Source of the DNA: a virus
DNA length: 20,454 nucleotides
Reading direction: 5' to 3' (one strand)
Virus record (IMG/VR): IMGVR_UViG_3300037089_000020
Location: 1 to 20,454 of that record
Every line of letters begins with the position of its first letter. Position 1 is the first letter of the stretch. The notes below the pieces were generated by a model. The model was not told where the DNA came from. It made no database searches and saw only the letters and a list, made by a program, of their open reading frames with translations. Both the position numbers and the translations under genes were made by a program. Shown piece after piece: positions 1,071 through 16,410 of the stretch.

Positions 1071-4000
1071 TTATTCGTAGTTTACGAATGAGAAGTTGCC
1101 TTCCCGTTTTATCTCAATCTGTTTATCCACAGCGTCCTTGAGTGCATCAAGGTGTGAGATAATAAGCACGAAGTCGAAGTTGTTCTTCAAGAATGAGAAG
1201 AGCGTGTACATTGACGCCAGATTGTCGGCGTCGAGTGTTCCAAAGCCTTCGTCGAGGGCAAGAAACGTCGTCTTAGGAAGGTTGGAGATGTTTGTCAGAG
1301 CAACACGAATAGCCACACTGGCTACGAACCGCTCATATCCAGAAGTCAATTCGATTGGCCATCGGCCATACTCATAGACAACGTAGGGCACAACGTTTTT
1401 GCCATCGGTCTCAAACTGAATAGTATAGTCAACCACTTGGCTGAGGATGGAATTGACTTCCTTCTCAATCTCGGGAACTGTGTTGCAGATGACTTGGTAT
1501 GGGATACCATCACGCCCCACTGCGGCGAGATAATGCTGACGGTGTTCGAGTTCGGTTTCCATTGCCGTGACTTCGGCGAGGGTCTTCGTGACCGTTTGAA
1601 TGGTGGACTTGAACAGTTCACGCTTGCCAGAAATCTCCAATAGCGATTGGTGCTGTTTCTGGAACTGAACATCAAGCTTGGTAAGGGTAGTACGAAACGC
1701 ATTGATTTTCGATTGCACTTTGACATTGTTCTCCACCGCTACTTCATTACGATGGTAGATTTCGATTTGTAAAATAACTGCCTTGGACGCTGCATCCAGA
1801 CGTTCGAGTTCATTGGTCGCAATAATGATGCTCTTGCTGGCTGTAGCACACTTATCCTTGACAGTCCCCCGCTCGGTCAGAAGCTTGGTGTAGGTCTCAT
1901 AGGTATTCTCAACCCACTTGGTTTCTTCCATCTTCGTACGAAGGCCATCCAACGTCTCCATCATTCCATTAGCTTCGAATTTGTCATCGGGCAATTGCTT
2001 CTTGGCCTTGGTCGCATCTTTGACGAAATCATTATCCACACAGAACTTGCAGTTCGGGTCGTACTTGTGGTTCTTAAGACGTTCCACCTTTTCAAGCTTA
2101 CTCTTGATTTCTACTTTCTTGAGGTCCATTGTCTGCTTGAGAGCAGTCATCTTGTCGCATAATTCCTTGTAAGTCTTGTGGGCTTCTACGAAGTTTGACT
2201 TCTCAATCTTTTCGACTTCGGAATTGATTTCGCCAAGCTTTTTCTCTTGAGCCGTCAGAATCTCCCGTGCATCTGAAATCGCCTTGCGTTTGGCTGTAAG
2301 AGTTGATTCCGCAGTTTGCTTTCGAGTTTCCAATGACGAAAGGTCCGTGGGAACGCTTGTATCCAACTTGATGACATTGGCACTCTCGGCTATGATTTGC
2401 TCATTTACGTCAGAAATCTGCTTCTTCAAGCTTTCCACTTCCTGATTGGACGAATAGAAGAGCGTCTCGGCATGAGACAGTGCAGCTTCATTCTGTTGAA
2501 TGTCGAGTTGATAGTTCTTATCCTTATGAGTCTTAAGAACAGCCACAAGTTCCTTGCTACGCTCTCCCGCAGACTCATGGAGGCGGTCAAAGACGTTAAG
2601 GCCGATGAATTGTACCAGAAGGTCTTTACGCTCACTGTTACCCATGTCAATGAATGACGTTAGGTTCTTAGCGTTCTGGAATGAGGCGGCAGTGATAACA
2701 AAATCCTCATAGGTTCCAATGTAGTCCCGGATGATGTCGTTGGTATCACGACGCACGGTGCCGTGAAGTTCTTCCTCAACCCCGTTGACTATCTTCCAGA
2801 AACGAACATCCACCTTGACATTGCCCGAGCGAGTTGTGTTACCCTTGCGTTCAATGAAGTATCTCACGCTAGAAATCTCGAACTCCAACTTGCAACGGAA
2901 GGAAGACTTCTGAACGTTGAGGACGTGAAGTCCCTTGTAGCCACGGTCAAATTTGTCGAAGAGACAGAAGATAAGAGCCGAGAGGATGCTCGACTTACCC
3001 GACTTGTTGGGACCAAAGATGCCATAAACACCAGTCATCTGAGTAAAGTCAATGACGTTGCCTTCCCCATAAGTGAACATATTGTCGAACTCGAACTTTA
3101 TGGGTTTCCATTTCAAGTTACGAGTAAAGTCATCCCGTTTAATGAGAGCATTTGTAGCCTTGTTGATTTTCAGAATCTCTTCAATCTTAACGGGGTCCGT
3201 AATCTCAAGCTTCTTCGTTAGGAACTCGGTCAGAAGTTTTTCCTGATACTCCACCGTGGTCAAATCGGCAAGGACAATATCCTTACACAATGGGATAATG
3301 TCCTTCTTATCTCGCTCTTGGTCCATGCGGACATAGGCCGTTTCAACGACCTGTGTCTTCATCTTGATGTCAGCCAAGACCTTCTTGACTTCCGAGGCAA
3401 CACTTTCATAGCACTTCATGCGGAGACGAACCTTCTTCGGAAGGTTGGTCAAGTCCGTCGCCAGAAGTCCCTTATGAATGTCAATTGTGAAGTATCCATA
3501 GTCATTCTTTATCTCAGTGAACTTGTAAGTGCGGGTCTTCAAGTCCCATAGAGAGTAGCCGTGGCCATGCAGACCTTCACCGTGGTTTTGCTGAATCAGA
3601 CTACCGACATAATGAATACACGGCTTAAAGTGGTCAAGGTCGGCGTCCTGCATATCTTGACGCTTATGAATATCACCCAGCATAGCAATATCATTTCCGT
3701 CAAACAGGGGATTCATGATAGCGGGGTTGCTGATGGAATATCCCGTCTCCAATGCAGCCCTGTCAACGGCTCCATGAAATAGAGCTATGATATGCTCGTA
3801 TTGGTGCCGATAAACATCGGGAATATCCTTCCCAAGAATATATCTCTCGGGCGTATCAAACACACACATGTTGTTGAACAGCACATTGGAAAGACCGTAG
3901 AGACCAGTGGTTTTGAGATAGTAAATGTTCGGATTGTTAAGGGCATCTACAAGTGGGGTCAGACTGTCCAACCTGCTTTTATTGGAAAGTGTAGCGTCAT

Positions 4001-4277
4001 GATTTCCAGCTACAAGCACAAGGGGACGAATAGCGGCAATACGGGTGAAAAGGTCTGACGCAACTTGTACGCACTCGGGAGATAAGTCGCTCTTGGAATG
4101 AAACACGTCGCCAAGCAGAGCTACGATTGTGGTCTCGGGGGTCTTCTTGATTTCCTCGTAGAGATTATTGAAGACTTCCTTGTACTCATCATGTCGCTTA
4201 TTAAGGCGAATGTGGAGGTCCGCAAATTGCAGAACGTGAGTGAATTCGGGAATGCTCGTTTTTAGTATATTTATCAT
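1071..4277 (-). CDS. Single-chain Mre11-Rad50 (SbcD-SbcC, T4 gp47-gp46-like) fusion nuclease/ATPase
   Basis: This 1068-aa protein joins a Mre11/SbcD nuclease to a Rad50/SbcC SMC-type ATPase. Numbering is from Met at 4277. Phosphoesterase motifs are DLH (20-22), GDVF (56-59), GNHD (91-94), FHG (167-169) and GDIHKRQ (201-207), then a capping-region-like 'GSLIQQNHGE'. The ATPase half has Walker A GPNKSGKSS (422-430), a coiled-coil-rich region (about 570-920) with a CKFC zinc hook (743-746), signature LTSGYERF (977-984), Walker B FLALDEG (1005-1011) and H-loop ISHLD (1040-1044). All core motifs are intact, so activity is likely: DNA end processing and recombination-dependent replication. I chose the ATG at 4277 because it forms an ATGA overlap with the primase stop; an in-frame start at 4310 would add 11 residues inside the primase gene. 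In T4 and bacteria these are normally two separate genes, so the fusion is notable. Confidence 0.93.
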   Translation of the reverse strand: MINILKTSIPEFTHVLQFADLHIRLNKRHDEYKEVFNNLYEEIKKTPETTIVALLGDVFHSKSDLSPECVQVASDLFTRIAAIRPLVLVAGNHDATLSNKSRLDSLTPLVDALNNPNIYYLKTTGLYGLSNVLFNNMCVFDTPERYILGKDIPDVYRHQYEHIIALFHGAVDRAALETGYSISNPAIMNPLFDGNDIAMLGDIHKRQDMQDADLDHFKPCIHYVGSLIQQNHGEGLHGHGYSLWDLKTRTYKFTEIKNDYGYFTIDIHKGLLATDLTNLPKKVRLRMKCYESVASEVKKVLADIKMKTQVVETAYVRMDQERDKKDIIPLCKDIVLADLTTVEYQEKLLTEFLTKKLEITDPVKIEEILKINKATNALIKRDDFTRNLKWKPIKFEFDNMFTYGEGNVIDFTQMTGVYGIFGPNKSGKSSILSALIFCLFDKFDRGYKGLHVLNVQKSSFRCKLEFEISSVRYFIERKGNTTRSGNVKVDVRFWKIVNGVEEELHGTVRRDTNDIIRDYIGTYEDFVITAASFQNAKNLTSFIDMGNSERKDLLVQFIGLNVFDRLHESAGERSKELVAVLKTHKDKNYQLDIQQNEAALSHAETLFYSSNQEVESLKKQISDVNEQIIAESANVIKLDTSVPTDLSSLETRKQTAESTLTAKRKAISDAREILTAQEKKLGEINSEVEKIEKSNFVEAHKTYKELCDKMTALKQTMDLKKVEIKSKLEKVERLKNHKYDPNCKFCVDNDFVKDATKAKKQLPDDKFEANGMMETLDGLRTKMEETKWVENTYETYTKLLTERGTVKDKCATASKSIIIATNELERLDAASKAVILQIEIYHRNEVAVENNVKVQSKINAFRTTLTKLDVQFQKQHQSLLEISGKRELFKSTIQTVTKTLAEVTAMETELEHRQHYLAAVGRDGIPYQVICNTVPEIEKEVNSILSQVVDYTIQFETDGKNVVPYVVYEYGRWPIELTSGYERFVASVAIRVALTNISNLPKTTFLALDEGFGTLDADNLASMYTLFSFLKNNFDFVLIISHLDALKDAVDKQIEIKREGNFSFVNYE

Positions 4278-5224
4278 ATTCCAAGTTCGTATTTTAGATG
4301 GTCGCTCCAATCAAATGGCGGGGAATGTCGGATAAGGGTATGAATTTTCTCAAACCCAAGTTTGGATGGGTCTTTTCCTGACAGTTTAACGATGGAAATC
4401 TCTTCGAGGCAAGGGACATGGCGTGTTAGCCTTACATATGCTTTTATGGAATCCTTCTCTGCATCCAAATCCAGTATCACATTTACCCGCTTGACGTGGT
4501 GTTCGTTCATTCGCATTTGCAATGAAGATGACGGATACTTTCCGAACAATGGTATGGCGTTATTGCGAATGGCCATCGCATCAAATACACCTTCACATAG
4601 ATTAAGCGGTTCGTCATAATTGACAAAGCTTTCAAAGCCTACCAAGTCCATTGAAACGTCTGGTTTTTTATGTGGAACGCACCCATCTTCATAATAACGT
4701 CGGCCAATGAAAAAGTTGAGTACGCCTTTGGCATCATATGACGGAATGATAATGTGGTGCTCATATTCCCCACTTTCACAGTACCCGATGTTGTACCTAA
4801 GTATGTCCTCACGGGTGATACCACGTCGTTTTAAGTATGCCAAGGCATTCTTATATTCTGGCATAATTCGAGGTTTGGAGATTGGATGAAACTCAGGCGG
4901 AAGGTTGAGGAAAGTCGGGTCGGCCTTGGCATAACGAGCCATCCGAATGTCACCAGTAAGCTTTAAGATAGCGTCCCGATAGTTTGGCGGGGCTTGAAGT
5001 TTGTAGAGCAAACTCCCAAACGTGGCACCTTTCGTATCGCATCGCCAGCAATGGTAACTGCCAATTCTAGCACCGCCAACGGCGATTTCCAACTTGTTGG
5101 TAGAAAGATTCTTGTCAACGCAGAAGGGGCAATGGTACGTGGCCTGAACTCCCGATTTTCGGACTCTGGCCTGCTGACCGAGCAATTCATTGAAGATTGC
5201 TGTCAATTCTGATTGTACCATCAT
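4274..5224 (-). CDS. DNA primase, CHC2-type zinc finger plus TOPRIM
   Basis: This 316-aa protein fits a DnaG/T4 gp61-type primase that makes RNA primers for lagging-strand synthesis. An N-terminal zinc-binding site is formed by C32-x2-C35 and C59-x2-C62, in 'HCPFC' and 'HCWRC'. A TOPRIM domain follows: CEGVFDAMA (210-218, acidic E211), ILDLDAEKD (250-258, metal-binding D252/D254) and SGKDPSKLG (282-290). There is no helicase domain, so a separate phage helicase is expected elsewhere. The start is ATGATG at 5224/5221 with GAGG immediately upstream; the second ATG is an equally possible start. The stop overlaps the start of the Mre11-Rad50 fusion (ATGA), which implies translational coupling of priming and recombination functions. 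Confidence 0.9.
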   Translation of the reverse strand: MMVQSELTAIFNELLGQQARVRKSGVQATYHCPFCVDKNLSTNKLEIAVGGARIGSYHCWRCDTKGATFGSLLYKLQAPPNYRDAILKLTGDIRMARYAKADPTFLNLPPEFHPISKPRIMPEYKNALAYLKRRGITREDILRYNIGYCESGEYEHHIIIPSYDAKGVLNFFIGRRYYEDGCVPHKKPDVSMDLVGFESFVNYDEPLNLCEGVFDAMAIRNNAIPLFGKYPSSSLQMRMNEHHVKRVNVILDLDAEKDSIKAYVRLTRHVPCLEEISIVKLSGKDPSKLGFEKIHTLIRHSPPFDWSDHLKYELGI

Positions 5225-5263: not shown

Positions 5264-6361
5264 TTATAACTCGTCCCGTTTTCGTTCTACCCACATCATC
5301 TGAGACTTCATTCGGTTGTAGAGAATATTGTCGGGCTGTTGAGCATAAAACTTGCTACGCATCACACCACATTTGGGACATCCATGTCCACTCATATGAA
5401 TATCGGGGGTTGTGAAAAAAGGACCGTGGTCTCGACATATGATGGTGGTAGGAGTTTTGGAATTTGCATAGCAAGTCTGAGAATAATCATATGTATCTCC
5501 GTGAACCTCTTTTGAGCGTCGGATGAATTCTTCCAATCCAATCAGCCCCTTTCCAAAACATTTCGGGCATCCCTGTTGAAAGTGTATGTGGTTCTCGGGG
5601 GTCTGCAAAAACTCTCCATGCTCGGGGCAAATAATTATTCCTTTTGTTTTCCCATTTACATATACAAATTTAGAATAGTCATAATGGTCTCCATTGATTG
5701 CTGATACTCGCCCGAGAAACTCTTCCATAGACAGCTTTGCTGCTTCGGACCTACGAACAATCCCACAGCGAGGGCAACCATCCCCCCGCAAATGAGCATT
5801 TGGCGTTGCATAGAATGGACCATGTATTGAGCATCCAAATTCCACCTTTTCATCGGAGGATTTGTACATTACCTTTGAGTAATCCCACCTATTCCCTTGA
5901 AGTTGGCGTGCCTTCTGTATGAAATCTTCCGTGGAGGATTTCAACCCCTCACGTACATCTTCAATGCCACATTGAGGGCAACCGTGGTCTGATAGATGAT
6001 TGCAAGCGTCTTGAGAAAAGTCCCCGTGAATTCTGCACGTTATGATTACTTTCTCATGCCCACTGACGTATTTGGTTTTAGAATAGTCATATCGGTTTCC
6101 ATGAAGGGCTTGTGCATCCTGTATGAATTGTTCGGTTGATTTTGGACTACACTGAGGGCGAAGCCTTCTAGCACATGTAGGACATGTCTGCCCATTCCAG
6201 TGGTTTTTCGGGGTCTGATAAAACTCGCCGTGCTTGGGGCAAATGATAGTGATTTTATCGTACTGAGAATAATACCGCACACGGGAATAGTCATACCTAT
6301 TCCCGTGTGCAGATTTTGCCCTGTGGATACACTCCGCAGTGGTTAGCGTTGCTTTTCCCAT
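5264..6361 (-). CDS. Five-repeat zinc-ribbon protein (DUF723-like repeats)
   Basis: The 365-aa product is built almost entirely of five tandem repeats of about 68 residues, centred at 19-63, 87-131, 155-199, 223-268 and 287-331. Each contains 'G(N/D)xxxDYS', a single Cys followed by an HG pair, and an H-then-CPxC ending such as 'GCPKC'. The conserved Cys/His pattern suggests one zinc-bound treble-clef or ribbon unit per repeat. Repeats of this kind are common in phage and mobile-element proteins and I believe they match DUF723, often taken as nucleic-acid binding. I see no nuclease catalytic motif. I chose ATG 6361, only 4 nt after the metallophosphoesterase stop; an upstream in-frame start at 6400 would overlap that gene. 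Its place in the operon suggests a DNA-related role, but it could be a degenerate or accessory homing protein. Confidence 0.8.
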   Translation of the reverse strand: MGKATLTTAECIHRAKSAHGNRYDYSRVRYYSQYDKITIICPKHGEFYQTPKNHWNGQTCPTCARRLRPQCSPKSTEQFIQDAQALHGNRYDYSKTKYVSGHEKVIITCRIHGDFSQDACNHLSDHGCPQCGIEDVREGLKSSTEDFIQKARQLQGNRWDYSKVMYKSSDEKVEFGCSIHGPFYATPNAHLRGDGCPRCGIVRRSEAAKLSMEEFLGRVSAINGDHYDYSKFVYVNGKTKGIIICPEHGEFLQTPENHIHFQQGCPKCFGKGLIGLEEFIRRSKEVHGDTYDYSQTCYANSKTPTTIICRDHGPFFTTPDIHMSGHGCPKCGVMRSKFYAQQPDNILYNRMKSQMMWVERKRDEL

Positions 6362-6365
6362 AGAC

Positions 6366-7265
6366 TTACCCCAAGTCCAGCACCGCAAGAAGAGGGTCAA
6401 TCGTGGCGAGTTTGATGGGAGTATAAATAGTCCCGCCCTCGGTCACGAGCGTCATTTCACGCCCAATGTCAATGACGTTGACTTGGGTGCGTCCATCGGA
6501 GAGGACGTGAATCATGGCGAAGGCGTGCGCCCAACCGTTCTGAGCACCGCCTTTACTGCAATACTCAGCTTGCAGCTTGGTCATACAGCCAATGCAATCC
6601 GCTCGGCGTCTCTCGTAGATGTTGGAGTCAATGCTTTCACGAATGACCTTATGCTGGTGCCCATACACCACATTGTCGAAATCACGAAGCATTTTCTTTA
6701 TAGAACCATTGTTATATCCATGCAGAACCACCGTTCCTTTGTGACCGGGAGCATTGATGAACACAAAGGGGTCTTCCTCACCGCCCCAGTAGGCATGGTA
6801 TTCGATATTGAAATCCTTCCACACAGGCCAGTTGTGGAAAGCCTCGGTTTGGAACTGTCGCATTGCGGGCTGAGAGAAGAAGGTGCGGGACCAGAAGTCA
6901 TGGTTGCCTTCAAGTTGGAACTTCTTAGCATCGGGGTATTTCTTATGCAAATACGCCCAGAAATTGTACACCATTTGTTTCTGAGACGCCCACGAGGCGG
7001 TGTACCAGTCTCCATTGGTATCTTGGGCTGTGCCTTCACGCTGAACTGCTTTGTTCCATGCGGAAATAGTGGACATTTCAGCAATGTCTCCAAGATGAAT
7101 AATGCCATCCAACTGATAAGGCTCAATGAATTGAAGCATCAGTGATATGGCTTCGGGGTCTTGGCAGAAGCGGGGTTCGTGGAACGTTTTACCATCCTTC
7201 AACGGCGCTTGGAAGTGCGTATCTGGGATGACGAGGTAGGTAGCTATCTTTGTTGTTTTCTTCAT
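6366..7265 (-). CDS. Calcineurin-like metallophosphoesterase
   Basis: The 299-aa protein has the full two-metal phosphoesterase motif set: DTH (15-17), GD (59-60), GNHD (120-123), LHG (181-183) and GHQH (202-205). Substrate is not shown by the sequence; phosphodiester or phosphomonoester cleavage on nucleic acids or nucleotides is possible. It is distinct from the Mre11-like half of the fusion nuclease in the same operon, being shorter and lacking the capping region. I prefer ATG 7265; an in-frame GTG at 7286 would add seven residues and lies inside an inverted repeat. It is the first gene of the minus-strand module and is followed 4 nt later by the zinc-ribbon repeat gene. Confidence 0.88.
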   Translation of the reverse strand: MKKTTKIATYLVIPDTHFQAPLKDGKTFHEPRFCQDPEAISLMLQFIEPYQLDGIIHLGDIAEMSTISAWNKAVQREGTAQDTNGDWYTASWASQKQMVYNFWAYLHKKYPDAKKFQLEGNHDFWSRTFFSQPAMRQFQTEAFHNWPVWKDFNIEYHAYWGGEEDPFVFINAPGHKGTVVLHGYNNGSIKKMLRDFDNVVYGHQHKVIRESIDSNIYERRRADCIGCMTKLQAEYCSKGGAQNGWAHAFAMIHVLSDGRTQVNVIDIGREMTLVTEGGTIYTPIKLATIDPLLAVLDLG

Positions 7266-7278
7266 TTTGTCTTTCTGC

Positions 7279-7295
7279 TCTGACACACTGTCAGA
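7279..7295. promoter_or_regulatory. Hyphenated palindrome in the divergent intergenic region
   Basis: TCTGACA and TGTCAGA form perfect 7-bp inverted arms around a 3-bp spacer, 13 bp upstream of the metallophosphoesterase ATG and between divergent genes. The size and symmetry fit an operator for a small dimeric regulator. The rest of the 7266-7386 gap shows no gene or clear promoter. Confidence 0.3.
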
Positions 7296-7396: not shown

Positions 7397-7410
7397 ATGT
7401 GAAAACATCT
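7395..7410 (+). promoter_or_regulatory. GAAA-tetraloop hairpin covering the GTG start codon
   Basis: AGATGT and ACATCT form a 6-bp stem closed by a GAAA (GNRA-type) tetraloop. The start codon (7399-7401) lies in the stem and first loop base. Such a hairpin would hide the initiation site in longer transcripts. Start-region hairpins that silence homing endonuclease translation are known for T4 I-TevI; a similar role here is inference. Confidence 0.4.
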
Positions 7411-7950
7411 GGAATCTACAAAATCCTCAATAAAATCAACGGCAAGTACTACGTTGGGTCTGCCAAAAATATCTACGACCGATGGTCGGACCACAAGAAG
7501 GATTTGAAGAAATCAAGGCACCACAATCGTCATTTACAGCGAGCGTGGGACAAATATGGTAAGGAGAATTTCGAACTCGTTGTCGTTGAAACCTGTGTTC
7601 CCGAGGCTCTTTTAGACAGGGAACAAGAGCATCTTACCCGCTGCAAATCAGTTCCAGATACAAATTACAACATGATTTACGAGGCGGGTGGTGGAGGGGA
7701 CTTCGCCCCAGAAATCATCGAGAAGATGCGAAGAAATCATGCCGATTTTCGTGGAGAAAAGAACCCCCGTTACGGCACTCATCTTTCCGAAGAGACCAAG
7801 CAAAAAATAAGAGCAAAGGCGATAGCGAGGCAATCAGACCCTTCTAAAAGACCAATGCTTGGAAAACACCACTCCGAGGCAACTCGCCAAAAACTACGAG
7901 ACATCAAACTAGCCCATTATCGCAATTCTCAACTTCTTCTTCCAACCTAG
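7399..7950 (+). CDS. GIY-YIG homing endonuclease with NUMOD3 repeats
   Basis: This 183-aa product is the only clear plus-strand gene. The N-terminal GIY-YIG nuclease has GIY (5-7), YVG (18-20), the expected catalytic Arg in IYDRW (R28), Glu in LDREQEHL (E75) and NYN (89-91). NUMOD3-type DNA-binding motifs follow at about 119-142 ('GEKNPRYGTHLSEETKQKI') and 154-175. It is a free-standing homing enzyme, paralogous to the minus-strand enzyme at 8890-9549. The start is GTG, the only plausible start after the in-frame TGA at 7384-7386, and it lines up with the N-terminus of the paralogue. No Shine-Dalgarno is visible. Its 3' end overlaps the convergent T5orf172-type gene by 47 bp. Confidence 0.88.
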   Translation: MKTSGIYKILNKINGKYYVGSAKNIYDRWSDHKKDLKKSRHHNRHLQRAWDKYGKENFELVVVETCVPEALLDREQEHLTRCKSVPDTNYNMIYEAGGGGDFAPEIIEKMRRNHADFRGEKNPRYGTHLSEETKQKIRAKAIARQSDPSKRPMLGKHHSEATRQKLRDIKLAHYRNSQLLLPT

Positions 7951-8203
7951 AAATAGCCATGTGCAATGGTATTTCATACCATTCGTTTCGTTGGGATAAT
8001 GCAAAATGACGCATTGCCTCTCTGATTCGTTTCTCGGCGGGAATGCAATCTGGATGAGGAATGTTGAAGACCATCTTGTACCCACGCTTGGGGTCGGAGG
8101 TCTGATAAGACCGAAGGCGAGCGTCCAAATCTTCTGTACACCCCACTTTCACAAAGCCGGGAAACGCATCGTTCGTAACTATGTAGAGGTATCCGCCTTT
8201 CAC
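7904..8203 (-). CDS. T5orf172/GIY-YIG-superfamily small protein
   Basis: The 99-aa product matches the T5orf172 (Mug113-like) branch of GIY-YIG domains: GYLYIV (4-9), VKVGCTEDLDARL (18-30, with R29), then PAEKRIREAM (55-64) and NEWYEI (73-78). The short size means it carries only the nuclease-like domain. I chose the GTG at 8203 because GTGA overlaps the stop of the upstream zinc-binding gene; a longer TTG start at 8245 would add 14 unmatched residues. Members of this family occur in phages and mobile elements as presumed nucleases, so this is a third GIY-YIG-type protein in 2.2 kb. The 3' end overlaps the convergent homing endonuclease. Confidence 0.75.
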   Translation of the reverse strand: MKGGYLYIVTNDAFPGFVKVGCTEDLDARLRSYQTSDPKRGYKMVFNIPHPDCIPAEKRIREAMRHFALSQRNEWYEIPLHMAISRLEEEVENCDNGLV

Positions 8204-8409
8204 TCTTGGTATAACTTTTTGTATTGGGGGTCCGAATGCATACAATCATCGCAGACGTACTCTTCGTCATCTCGTTGATATTCTTTCCAGTTGCCCTCGG
8301 CCACAATGTAGTATCCACCCGTAACAGTAACGCCCGTGGTAGGGCAAATGTCAATGGTTCCTTCGACCACTTTACCGCACCTATCGCACGTTATTTGTAT
8401 TGTTTTCAT
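8200..8409 (-). CDS. Small four-cysteine putative zinc-binding protein
   Basis: The 69-aa product has two CxxC pairs, C8-x2-C11 (CDRC) and C53-x2-C56 (CDDC), consistent with one zinc ribbon. The middle, with GGYYIVAEGNW (31-41), looks like a small beta hairpin domain. It starts inside the end of the RuvC-like gene (29-bp overlap) and its TGA overlaps the GTG of the next gene, so it sits in a tightly coupled set. No specific function is recognisable; phages encode many such small zinc proteins that bind nucleic acid or host proteins. Confidence 0.68.
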   Translation of the reverse strand: MKTIQITCDRCGKVVEGTIDICPTTGVTVTGGYYIVAEGNWKEYQRDDEEYVCDDCMHSDPQYKKLYQE

Positions 8410-8893
8410 AGCACGATACCACTATCGCATCATAGGCATCTTCCATTTTTTTATCTGGAACTCCGTTTCTGTTTAGCACAATCCACGGAGTCATATTATA
8501 CATAGTTTCAATTTTCTGTTTTACGAAATCTTTTGGTTTTATTCCTTTTATTCTGGACACCCCAAACAATTGTTTTCGCATCGTGACAGCATTGGCATAA
8601 ACCATTGGAAGATGATAATGCTCTTCGAGAATATAGCAAATAACCGCTTTATTCTTCGCCAGCTTCAATAACGTTTGTTGGGAAGTTTTTCCAAATGCAA
8701 ATCCCGACAAATTTTCTTCAACATTTATTCTCCCGAATTCTTTTCCGACGAGACCATCTATTATGATTTGGGCTTTGTCTTTGTACTTTTCTACTTTTGA
8801 TATGTCAAAATATCCGGCATCAATCAACTTTTTATCCTCTGTTATTGCGAATCCGCAGGTCGAACACGACAAATCTAATCCGAGAGATTTCAT
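8381..8893 (-). CDS. RuvC-like Holliday junction resolvase / RNase H-fold nuclease
   Basis: The 170-aa product has the acidic residues expected for RuvC-type resolvases: D7 in SLGLDLSCSTCGFAI, E59/E60 in INVEENLSGFAFGK, and D152/D155 in EDAYDAIVVSCY near the C-terminus. Length is close to bacterial RuvC. The likely role is cleavage of branched DNA during phage recombination and before packaging. The ATG at 8893 has a strong GGGAGGGG Shine-Dalgarno and overlaps the stop of the upstream homing endonuclease (ATGA), so the SD lies within that gene's last codons. A poxvirus A22-like branch or another RuvC-fold nuclease cannot be separated by eye. Confidence 0.82.
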   Translation of the reverse strand: MKSLGLDLSCSTCGFAITEDKKLIDAGYFDISKVEKYKDKAQIIIDGLVGKEFGRINVEENLSGFAFGKTSQQTLLKLAKNKAVICYILEEHYHLPMVYANAVTMRKQLFGVSRIKGIKPKDFVKQKIETMYNMTPWIVLNRNGVPDKKMEDAYDAIVVSCYENNTNNVR

Positions 8894-9549
8894 TGACCCC
8901 TCCCTCGTCGTAAAGCCGCTTCACGTAATTTTTGTTTTGATTCATCTGAATGATGTTTTCCTTTGAACGGAGAGGGTTTACCCTTTTTCGCAATACTTAT
9001 TTTTCTCTTTGTCTCGGCACCATAAGTCATTCCCTTATTCCACGCAGTTTGAACCCCCATCTTCCCCCTATTCCACGGCACTCGACCCATTTGCGAGGAA
9101 CTTATGTGAGATTTGTGCTCGTCAGAAAATATCATTCCTATTCGAGCATTACTTATCTTTTTCTTCGACTCTTCCGACATAACCCTGCCCACATTTGATT
9201 CGCTTATCTTTTTCCTACTCTCCAATGACATCTTTCGTCCTCGCATTGGAGCGGTAGAATCAAAAGACAGATTGTAATTCAATTCGGGAGAGTGGCGACA
9301 TTCATTCAGATATTTTTGTTCTGCCGCTTCAAGTTTTTCTTCGGGGATGACTTCAATCACATTGAACCGAAATGAAGGTTCTCCGTATTTATTCCACGCC
9401 GCTTGGAGATGGGGATTGGCATGATGATTGTTGTTCAACTTACACTTGTGAATATACCACCGATGATAAATGTCAGATGAACTGCCAACATAATACTTTC
9501 CATTTAGATTGTTCGTTATTTTGTAAATGCCGGTGACTTTGGTGTTCAT
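8890..9549 (-). CDS. GIY-YIG homing endonuclease with multiple NUMOD3 repeats
   Basis: The 219-aa product starts MNTKVTGIYKIT. It has GIY (7-9), YVG (20-22), R30 in IYHRW, E77 in AAEQKYL and NYN (91-93). After residue 100 about five NUMOD3-like motifs follow, including RGRKMSLESRKKI, MSEESKKKI, FSDEHKSHI, YGAETKRKI and HHSDESKQKL, more than in the plus-strand paralogue. It is a free-standing homing endonuclease. The ATG at 9549 has GGGAAA upstream and lies just after the stop of the RHH-like gene; an upstream in-frame start at 9660 would overlap that gene for over 100 bp. Its stop overlaps the resolvase start. Confidence 0.87.
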   Translation of the reverse strand: MNTKVTGIYKITNNLNGKYYVGSSSDIYHRWYIHKCKLNNNHHANPHLQAAWNKYGEPSFRFNVIEVIPEEKLEAAEQKYLNECRHSPELNYNLSFDSTAPMRGRKMSLESRKKISESNVGRVMSEESKKKISNARIGMIFSDEHKSHISSSQMGRVPWNRGKMGVQTAWNKGMTYGAETKRKISIAKKGKPSPFKGKHHSDESKQKLREAALRRGRGQ

Positions 9550-9550
9550 A

Positions 9551-9751
9551 TCAGTTTCCCTTTTTTTCCAAATTTTCACATCTCCCACAACCTTTTGGAA
9601 CCTTGTCGAGGCGAGCATATTCCTTCCCATATAACAATTGACTATGAAGTTGGTCTTCACACCATTGATTGAGTTTATGATTATTTTCTTCGCAAAACTG
9701 TTTGATTTCTTTGTGAAGTTCCTCGCTTATTTTTATTGTTTTATGTCTCAT
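9551..9751 (-). CDS. Small ribbon-helix-helix-like DNA-binding protein with C-terminal CxxC
   Basis: The 66-aa product starts MRHKTIKISEELHKEIKQF, the beta-strand-then-helix pattern of CopG/Arc-type repressors, with a second helix around 25-40. A C-terminal tail carries CGRC (54-57), unusual for a minimal RHH protein and possibly metal-binding. I chose ATG 9751; a longer frame to 9805 adds hydrophobic residues but starts upstream of the promoter-like motif. It is followed directly by the homing endonuclease, and three 10-bp direct repeats lie upstream, consistent with autoregulation. Assignment rests on pattern recognition only. Confidence 0.6.
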   Translation of the reverse strand: MRHKTIKISEELHKEIKQFCEENNHKLNQWCEDQLHSQLLYGKEYARLDKVPKGCGRCENLEKKGN

Positions 9752-13024: not shown

Positions 13025-13110
13025 TGAGTTAGGATTGCGTTTGTCATTATAATTGGGTTGCCATTATCGCTGGCGTAAACATCGGCCAAGTCAAAAGGCT
13101 TGCCGTGATG
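12934..13110 (-). pseudogene. Bridging coding frame between two apparently split gene pieces
   Basis: This frame is open from 13110 to a TGA at 12934 and reads GKPFDLADVYASDNGNPIIM, then TNAILTQWTYPGTDETMF, then LLERSTDSGSTW. It is protein-like and contains a perfect Asp box (SxDxGxTW). It overlaps the end of the 250-aa frame and the beginning of the 124-aa frame, each offset by minus one. An ATG at 13047 overlaps the TAA of the upstream gene (TAATG), so a 37-aa product is formally possible, but a fragment of one larger gene is more likely. Confidence 0.4.
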
Positions 13111-13799
13111 TTAGGTATAAATATAGGCGGGCCATCGTAATAGATGGGACAAGTGTAAGAAGCTGTCCCCGGCAAAATCCAATTTCCGAGGATACGGACC
13201 TCCTGAACCTTGGAGAAAAGGTTATTTCCCGCAATCAGATTGCCATTAGAATCGTCTTGAACCTCCACATTGTCATCAAATGACGTATCTTGGAACTGAA
13301 CGCTTCCGGGGGCAATTTTGTCGCCCATGACAAACCTCGGAATGGTAAACATCCTGAACTTGTCGGCCAAATAACGGTTCGCCTTGTTCAGAGGGAAGTC
13401 AATGTTTTCCATTCCGAAGATTTCGGTTGGGTTGTGATACTCATTGTAGAAAGCCCTGTACATCTGATTGTACAGGAGCACTTTATACGTTCCAGTGTTG
13501 AGGTTTATTTCCGCAGACGCCGAATCAAATGGCTTTACACTTCCACTGATGCCCTCTTCATAGAGGGCTAAGTCTGCTGTCTGTTGCTCCAAGGCAATGT
13601 CGCAATCACGGTTTAGGAGAGGAGTACCCGTGATGTAGTCAACATAGTCAAGAGCAATGGGCGTCTCAGGAATAACAACACTTGCGGAGTCTTGCTCCAA
13701 TATTACTTGGTCTGGGTTCTGTACATTATACAACTCCCGTGCCTTAGTGGCACGAAAAGGCGATGTCGTCACATCGGTCTTTTTGAGTTGTTTAAGCAT
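13047..13799 (-). CDS. Virion protein, short paralogue of the 418-aa structural protein
   Basis: The 250-aa product shares its first ~215 residues with the 418-aa protein at 15154-16410. Matching stretches include LDYVDY, DCDIALEQQ/ECDIALEQQ, YHNPTEIFG, FRMF(T/S)IPR, MGDKI/FGDKI, NLFSKVQEVR and ILPGT. After residue ~225 the match stops, and the last ~20 residues (SLLTWPMFTPAIMATQL) look out of frame. A minus-one shift near 13096-13100 would continue into a protein-like frame and then into the Asp-box fragment, giving about 383 aa in total. It has AGAGG before ATG 13799, just after the previous gene's stop. The likely role is attachment of a variable tail domain to the particle. Confidence 0.78.
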   Translation of the reverse strand: MLKQLKKTDVTTSPFRATKARELYNVQNPDQVILEQDSASVVIPETPIALDYVDYITGTPLLNRDCDIALEQQTADLALYEEGISGSVKPFDSASAEINLNTGTYKVLLYNQMYRAFYNEYHNPTEIFGMENIDFPLNKANRYLADKFRMFTIPRFVMGDKIAPGSVQFQDTSFDDNVEVQDDSNGNLIAGNNLFSKVQEVRILGNWILPGTASYTCPIYYDGPPIFIPNITASLLTWPMFTPAIMATQL

Positions 13800-15153: not shown

Positions 15154-15450
15154 TTAAGGAGGCGGTGCCCCCCACACTGACGCTGTGTAAAATCCTACGT
15201 TCGTTATGCTCGCATAATCATCATAACCCGTTGCGACGATAGCATTGAAAACCGATGCGCTGTAAAACGCTACGCTTGTTATTGACCCACTTTCTCCCGG
15301 GGTACTTCCAGTCACAAGCATCTGGAACAAAGACCCAGAGTAAAATCCCACGACAGAAAGTGATGCGCTATCTTGTGACCCAGTGGACATCACAACTGCA
15401 TCAAACAATGAGCCACTATAGAACCCAATACTTGTGATTGAGGCCGAATC
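15154..15450 (-). repeat. Tandem coding repeats, four units of 75-78 bp
   Basis: The 3' end of the 418-aa gene encodes four diverged units with a GFYSGS/GFYTAS core. They are similar in protein sequence but clearly diverged at base level, so the repeats are old and not a recent slippage event. Confidence 0.6.
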
Positions 15451-16410
15451 ATGTGGTTCAAAACTTCCCGATTGAACGACAGTTAATACTGTCGCCGAGA
15501 GGAACGAAACAACTCCCATAGACGGCGTGTCCGTATAACGCTCATTCGCTACACTACCGAATAAATATCCTGTTCTACTGCTTGGGTATTCAATAAATGG
15601 AACGGTTTCGAGAGATGCTGAATGGAATGCGGCGAATAAAGACGGGCTTACGCCTGATGTTCCGTCTGTAAATGGATAGGTAGTAGATGACCCGCTTATG
15701 AATCCTATATCCAAAGACCCGCTTTCAGATACAGAAGCAGAACGAGGCTTATTGTCATACGTGACACAAATACAACTTGACGTTCCCGGTAAAATTTCGT
15801 TGGACCCCGAGGGCCATGTTCGTACCTCTTGAACTTTGGAAAACAGGTTGTAGCCAGCGATGAGGTTTTGATACCCGTCGTCGAAAATCTCTACGTTGTC
15901 GTCGAGAAGAGTGTCATAGAAATGAACACTCTTAGGCTGTATTTTATCCCCGAATACAAGACGTGGAATACTAAACATCCGAAAGTGGTCGGCAAGATTT
16001 CGGAGAGTTTTGCTTAGAGGAAAGTCAATGTGTTCAACCCCAAAGATTTCCGTGGGATTATGGTAGGAATTGTAGAACGCATTCTTGGTCTGACGATGGA
16101 CAAGGGTCTGATAAGTTCCATCGGCGTTTCTTGCGTCGGAAGACGAATTGAAATTCGCTGACCCAGTGATACCCTCTTCATAACCAAGAGAGTCAATGTC
16201 TTGTTGTTCGAGTGCAATATCGCACTCTCTATTGATTACGGGGTTTCCCAAATTGTAATCAACGTAGTCGAGGGATATATTAGTGCCATTGGTATAAACC
16301 TCCGACTCTAGTATAACAGTGTCAGCGTTCTGAATGTTCGATAAAACACGGGCCTTAGCCGCAACGAACGGCGTCGTCGAGACATTCTGGTGATTGATGT
16401 GCTTTATCAT
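15154..16410 (-). CDS. Virion protein with paralogous N-terminal domain and tandem ~26-aa repeat tail
   Basis: This 418-aa protein has residues 1-215 paralogous to the protein at 13047-13799. Residues ~225-418 are Ser/Gly-rich and end with four tandem repeats of 25-26 residues starting at about 321, 347, 373 and 398, each of the form 'SASITSIGFYSGSLFDAVV'; the last is cut short by a GAPPP end. Weaker copies are visible at 255-315. Such repeats suggest an extended beta-structured shaft. The start is ATG 16410, shortly after the stop of the 386-aa gene; no clear Shine-Dalgarno is present. Repeat number could vary between related phages. Confidence 0.78.
   Translation of the reverse strand: MIKHINHQNVSTTPFVAAKARVLSNIQNADTVILESEVYTNGTNISLDYVDYNLGNPVINRECDIALEQQDIDSLGYEEGITGSANFNSSSDARNADGTYQTLVHRQTKNAFYNSYHNPTEIFGVEHIDFPLSKTLRNLADHFRMFSIPRLVFGDKIQPKSVHFYDTLLDDNVEIFDDGYQNLIAGYNLFSKVQEVRTWPSGSNEILPGTSSCICVTYDNKPRSASVSESGSLDIGFISGSSTTYPFTDGTSGVSPSLFAAFHSASLETVPFIEYPSSRTGYLFGSVANERYTDTPSMGVVSFLSATVLTVVQSGSFEPHDSASITSIGFYSGSLFDAVVMSTGSQDSASLSVVGFYSGSLFQMLVTGSTPGESGSITSVAFYSASVFNAIVATGYDDYASITNVGFYTASVWGAPPP

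Follow-up and report, generated by a model that had tools for sequence, protein, structure and literature searches.

The gene at positions 1071-4277 of the window, as the analysed stretch of 20,454 nucleotides is called here, lies on the minus strand; its single frame of 1068 codons begins with a nuclease of the Mre11 type and continues with a complete Rad50. The most probable reading, to which we give a probability of roughly 80%, is that this chain is the only Mre11-Rad50 complex of the phage, performs the job of T4 gp47-gp46 and acts in repair and in recombination-dependent replication as a homodimer corresponding to M2R2. The arrangement as such has been known since 2011, when Mre11/Rad50 fusions were described in Mimivirus, Bacillus phage 0305phi8-36, plasmids, bacteria and eukaryotes together with their domain logic (Yoshida, Claverie and Ogata, 2011; PMC3175470), and the gene of the window is a further case. 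What is added here is that the fusion is fixed and abundant in its lineage, with an active site in which a ligand change is conserved.

Gene and domain organisation

One uninterrupted 1068-codon frame had been described in the initial annotation, which named no strand. This description is correct for the minus strand, where the frame runs from an ATG at 4277 to a TAA at 1073-1071 with zero internal stops and yields a product of 1068 residues, while the plus strand of 1071-4277 is full of stops. Pfam matches cover both halves (Metallophos at residues 14-205, E 2.4e-8; AAA_23 at 398-628, E 7.5e-12), as do PHROGs matches (SbcD-like phrog_100 at 6-353; SbcC-like phrog_77 at 280-1067). The features of the gene and of its surroundings, with the evidence for each, are the following:

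1071..4277, minus strand: fused Mre11-Rad50 gene, 1068 aa (frame, Pfam, PHROGs, model, related loci)
3513..4277, minus strand: Mre11-type metallophosphoesterase domain, residues 1-255, with DxH, GD, GNHD, H and GDxH (Pfam Metallophos, motifs, model)
3324..3512, minus strand: Mre11 capping domain, residues 256-318 (modelled as strand-strand-helix-strand)
3258..3323, minus strand: low-confidence loop, residues 319-340 (320-334 below pLDDT 50 in the model; conserved among close relatives)
3141..3257, minus strand: Rad50-binding helix pair of Mre11, residues 341-379 (model helices 342-355 and 362-378; invariant Q345, L348 and N376)
3111..3140, minus strand: joint between the halves, about residues 380-389 (unstructured between helix 362-378 and strand 390-398)
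2598..3110, minus strand: Rad50 N-lobe, residues 390-560, with Walker A (421-430) and Q-loop (534) (Pfam AAA_23, motifs, model)
1518..2597, minus strand: Rad50 coiled-coil arms and CKFC zinc hook, residues 561-920, Cys 743 and 746 at about 2040-2051 (model, alignment)
1071..1517, minus strand: Rad50 C-lobe, residues 921-1068, with signature TSGYE, Walker B, D-loop and H-loop (motifs, alignment, model)
4274..5224, minus strand: DnaG-type primase (PHROGs), whose stop overlaps the start of the fusion (ATGA)
8381..8893, minus strand: RuvC-like Holliday junction resolvase, farther upstream in the same direction (phrog_159, E 7e-4)

An AlphaFold2 model of the monomer, built from 34 family members, is of moderate confidence (mean pLDDT 77, pTM 0.41). 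It places the nuclease up to about residue 255, the capping domain at about 256-318, a loose loop at 319-340, helices at 342-355 and 362-378, and the first Rad50 strand from 390, so that both the capping domain and the Rad50-binding helix pair of Mre11 are predicted to be present. Long helices at 561-735 and 750-920 flank the CKFC motif as coiled-coil arms around the zinc hook. The best matches among solved structures in Foldseek include Mre11 and Rad50 chains (7zr1, 3tho, 3qg5, 4o43 and 7yzp) alongside SMC-type proteins, and a search of a viral structure library ranks long proteins of giant viruses highest, with Tupanvirus on top (25% identity over the alignment), followed by the PAU and pT24 fusions.

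The region of about residues 270-400 had been taken for a linker, but in the model it consists mostly of folded Mre11 parts, namely the cap and the helix pair, together with the loose loop. The joint proper is reduced to about 11 residues between the helix pair and the first Rad50 strand at 390. In the complex of T. maritima the C-terminus of Mre11 and the N-terminus of Rad50 are about 28 Angstrom apart, a distance estimated to be bridged by 9-12 residues (Yoshida et al., 2011; PMC3175470), and the joint of the window falls inside this range, in an uninterrupted frame with Mre11 first, as in the fusions recognised in that study. Because both halves are fused in one chain, their stoichiometry is 1:1. 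It is plausible that the fusion also tethers the nuclease to the ATPase head, since in split complexes the same helix pair already docks Mre11 onto Rad50 (PMC3175470).

Motifs and active site

The initial annotation had listed all five Mre11 motifs. Motifs I-IV are canonical (D20-x-H22, GD56-57, GNHD91-94 and H168), but motif V is GD-x-H (201-204), reading GDIH instead of GHxH. The Rad50 set that it also listed, comprising Walker A, the CxxC hook, signature, Walker B and H-loop, was confirmed by the motif table: Walker A is GPNKSGKS, the Q-loop has Q534, the hook is CKFC at 743-746, the signature is TSGYE, Walker B is ALDEG, the D-loop is TLD and the H-loop is SH1041-1042. The signature is degenerate, with TSGYE in place of LSGGE/Q, while its S, G and E are invariant in the family; both hook cysteines are invariant in the 34-member alignment.

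The change in motif V is a property of the family, GDIH being found in 122 of 126 distinct relatives, with the remaining four unmatched by the pattern used. By contrast, GHxH is present in the split Mre11/SbcD proteins of T4, the cyanophage S-CAM8, the two Herelleviridae phages BSP38 and Stab21, Moorella phage MTATph1 and E. coli. The fusion is not the cause of GDxH, since JSF10 and PSTCR5, whose T5-type D12 is a split protein, share the His-to-Asp change (GDLH); the fusions of PAU, Carin-5 and YerA41 retain GHIH. In Mimivirus R555 the same change occurs, an aspartate replacing the ligand His206 of Mre11 (PMC3175470). Motif I reads DxQ in one sub-clade (27 of the 126 distinct sequences). This His-to-Gln change runs through all of the HHISDIQI sub-clade, with locus L059 and its relatives, and recurs in PAU, pT24 and MA9V-1. 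Given the conserved change in motif V and the DxQ of the sub-clade, metal binding and activity may differ from those of canonical Mre11.

Conservation of the fusion

A first scan of IMG/VR gave 144 relatives, and 80 loci were retained from these; a more diverse alignment brought the number of stretches that encode relatives to at least 598, and the GTDB genomes contain four metagenome-assembled contigs with relatives. Of 174 loci, 160 cover the protein from end to end. The other 14 fall short, mostly where their contig ends; among them, L008 is without the first hundred residues, and in L060 the break falls within the Rad50 coil, away from the junction. The finding named beforehand as one that would speak against a fusion, namely a relative whose halves are separated by a stop, does not occur among the 174 loci. 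Compared with relatives at 69-84% amino acid identity, dN is 0.12-0.25 and dS is above 1.6 or saturated, and for the joint (residues 379-391) dN against the same relatives is 0.03-0.10; purifying selection extends through the joint, and the open frame is not due to chance. Judged by these sequences, the fusion is the fixed and abundant form in the family of the window. The carrier is a water-borne phage lineage, a large viral group with the fusion as its normal form. The arrangement had been considered uncommon, a view that does not agree with fusion in 174 of 174 loci, with the number of stretches that encode relatives and with the fusions of other isolated phages.

Comparison with other fused and split systems

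Mimivirus R555 and its marine homologues have the same layout as the window, with an N-terminal Mre11, a C-terminal Rad50, the cap and the helix-loop-helix kept and a short joint (PMC3175470). R555 is longer (1351 against 1068 aa) and is carried by a giant virus, whereas the carrier of the window fusion is a phage whose complete relative is T4-like. Some marine contigs with R555 homologues adjoin phage genes such as primases, and abundant marine homologues beside phage primases were suspected to be phage genes (Yoshida et al., 2011; PMC3175470). T4 gp47/gp46, which are SbcD/SbcC-like, share with the window the two enzyme halves, their order on the DNA and the expected role, but are encoded separately, with two small genes in between, have GHxH as motif V and show only distant similarity. 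In a survey of jumbo phages, the passages on SbcC and SbcD describe both as nearly universal, and these passages do not mention a fusion (PMC7824862).

A search for other phage fusions, suggested in the initial annotation, found them in several other lineages including cultured isolates. Mre11 and Rad50 lie in one frame in PAU (gp288), Tenacibaculum phage pT24 and Chryseobacterium phage MA9V-1, all of the phrog_35725 type, and also in PTm1, PTm5 and MA9V-2. The same holds for Cobetia phage Carin-5, Vibrio phage Va2, Rhizobium phage RHph_TM2_3B and other Rhizobium RHph_TM phages, E. coli phage IME392 and Thermus phage phiLo, as well as Ab1-TPeters and Vibrio phage 150E35-1. These other fusions differ from that of the window in that the similarity is distant, some have GHIH, and they form separate groups in the trees of both halves. 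Yersinia phage YerA41 (L097, 2405-5442), a close relative of Carin-5, has its fusion divided into two genes that overlap and encode 827 and 185 aa, and the cut lies inside Rad50, before the C-lobe. The Rhizobium phage RHph_TM39 (L103, 1180-5026, in a record marked partial) has two successive genes that open with the same Mre11 sequence, which is either a duplication or an assembly fault; it was rejected as a true split relative, as both genes begin alike, and was left out of the comparison.

The PAU group, the Carin-5 group and the core of the window family are each well supported in the Mre11 and the Rad50 tree. In both trees the window family and the Carin-5 group do not join each other and are surrounded by split systems, and the 735-kb phage LR756501 groups with the window family in the Mre11 tree and with the PAU group in the Rad50 tree. 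A single fused clade is not rejected by the AU test (p = 0.16 and 0.47 for the two half-trees), and both one and several fusion events would be compatible with the trees.

Genomic context and a complete relative

In each of the 75 loci whose upstream sequence is long enough for scoring, the primase is found upstream of the fusion. A RuvC-like gene was found in 41 of 80 related loci, and such genes are frequent upstream together with virion-type genes. From the recombination and replication context typical of T4 gp46/gp47 the window holds the primase and the RuvC-like gene only; UvsX and a T4-type replisome are seen in Microcystis phage Mel-JY01. This phage encodes a fusion of 1066 aa (WWT39521.1), 37% identical to that of the window over 99%, with the primase just upstream, although a small ORF of 174 bases separates the two and the annotation is merely "AAA domain containing protein." Its complete genome of 190 kb encodes a UvsX-like recombinase, a DnaB/gp41-type helicase, a B-family polymerase and clamp loader subunits, in addition to a T4-like capsid protein, tail sheath and tail tube. 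A profile search of this genome found no second Mre11 or Rad50. A 560-aa AAA protein of Mel-JY01 (L122:32581-34263) was considered as a separate gp46-sized protein and rejected, being another kind of ATPase.

Proposed function and alternative explanations

As the simplest reading, and on the basis of what is known of the family, the fusion is most likely the gp46/gp47 of its lineage. Two chains would pair via their Mre11 nuclease domains and via Rad50 heads sandwiching ATP, giving the equivalent of M2R2, and the coils may in addition pair through the CxxC zinc hook. Binding and hydrolysis of ATP would gate how DNA ends reach the nuclease. The latter would trim them to single strands for a UvsX/RecA-type recombinase, and these strands would feed recombination-dependent replication jointly with the neighbouring primase. 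With its length of about 11 residues, the joint would stand in for diffusion and for subunit matching at the level of the operon, with the docking helix pair retained. We infer the dimer form, the gating, the nuclease activity and the role in replication, and also that the phage of the window, represented by a 20-kb fragment, has no second copy.

That the open frame results from an assembly or sequencing error, which joined two separate genes by erasing the stop or frameshift that divides them, could be considered for a metagenome contig of 20 kb. However, two contigs from other IMG/VR datasets (L005 and L006) are identical to the window over the whole gene, one frame spans the junction in every one of the 174 related loci, and cultured Mel-JY01 has the same layout, so that an artefact was rejected and has a negligible probability. 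It is very unlikely that the halves of the one chain are also, or mainly, used apart, through cleavage or an internal start at the Rad50 half. An internal start has in its favour the invariant Met400, which lies near the beginning of the Rad50 domain, but no ribosome-binding-like sequence precedes codon 400, for which reason a start at Met400 is not favoured. Moreover, the first predicted Rad50 strand (390-398) and the invariant W390, F395, E396, D398 and N399 precede Met400, so that a product starting there would lose a conserved part of the fold.

We also regard it as unlikely that the nuclease half is impaired and that the protein serves above all to tether DNA or bind its ends in an ATP-dependent manner. 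Such a role would fit the family-wide replacement of GHxH by GDIH and the DxQ in motif I of a sub-clade. On the other hand, aspartate can bind metal, and D20, D57, N92-H93, H168 and H204 are all invariant. The occurrence of GDLH in the split D12 proteins of JSF10 and PSTCR5, and of the same change in R555 (PMC3175470), likewise argues against an impaired nuclease.

Implications

Phage Mre11-Rad50 is often one chain, hidden under one-sided names such as "SbcC," "metallo-phosphoesterase," "AAA domain protein" or "coil containing protein." The phage fusions back the 2011 proposal that the abundant R555-like genes of ocean metagenomes are phage genes. With its fixed stoichiometry, a natural complex made as one chain, joined by 11 residues, is also convenient for structural studies. 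A tentative and rather doubtful extension is that a single old fused GDxH lineage unites aquatic T4-like phages with huge phages and with giant viruses of the Mimivirus type, having passed between bacterial and eukaryotic viruses as one cassette, and that its changed ligands (GDIH, and DxQ in a sub-clade) confer an activity unlike that of cellular Mre11-Rad50.

Further observations

In locus L007 (8001-11207, compared with 4277-1071 of the window) the first 1400 bases are identical, followed by up to 18 differences per 100 bases, a mosaic that points to recombination, with the break near where the Rad50 half begins. In the 484-kb phage LR756508.1 (L003) an ORF at 8656-9573 that combines a TnsA-like nuclease domain with cysteines resembling those of a zinc finger interrupts the fusion gene just after motif V; an Rfam search on this interrupted relative gave no match, and the insertion looks like a homing element or intron.

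The window contains a second calcineurin-type phosphoesterase (6366-7286, phrog_221), which was rejected as a partner of the fusion, as it is found only in near-identical contigs and among homing-endonuclease-type genes. A cluster of mobile-type genes surrounds the primase and the RuvC-like gene (5264-6400, 7399-7950, 7904-8245 and 8890-9660), with five repeated treble-clef modules (DUF4379/DUF723), two GIY-YIG/NUMOD3 genes, one of them on the plus strand, and one T5orf172 gene; most of these genes are absent from distant relatives. Two related virion-type proteins, encoded at 13047-13799 and 15154-16410, match the same relatives and have no Pfam match, and the latter carries a repeated SGS-rich tail.
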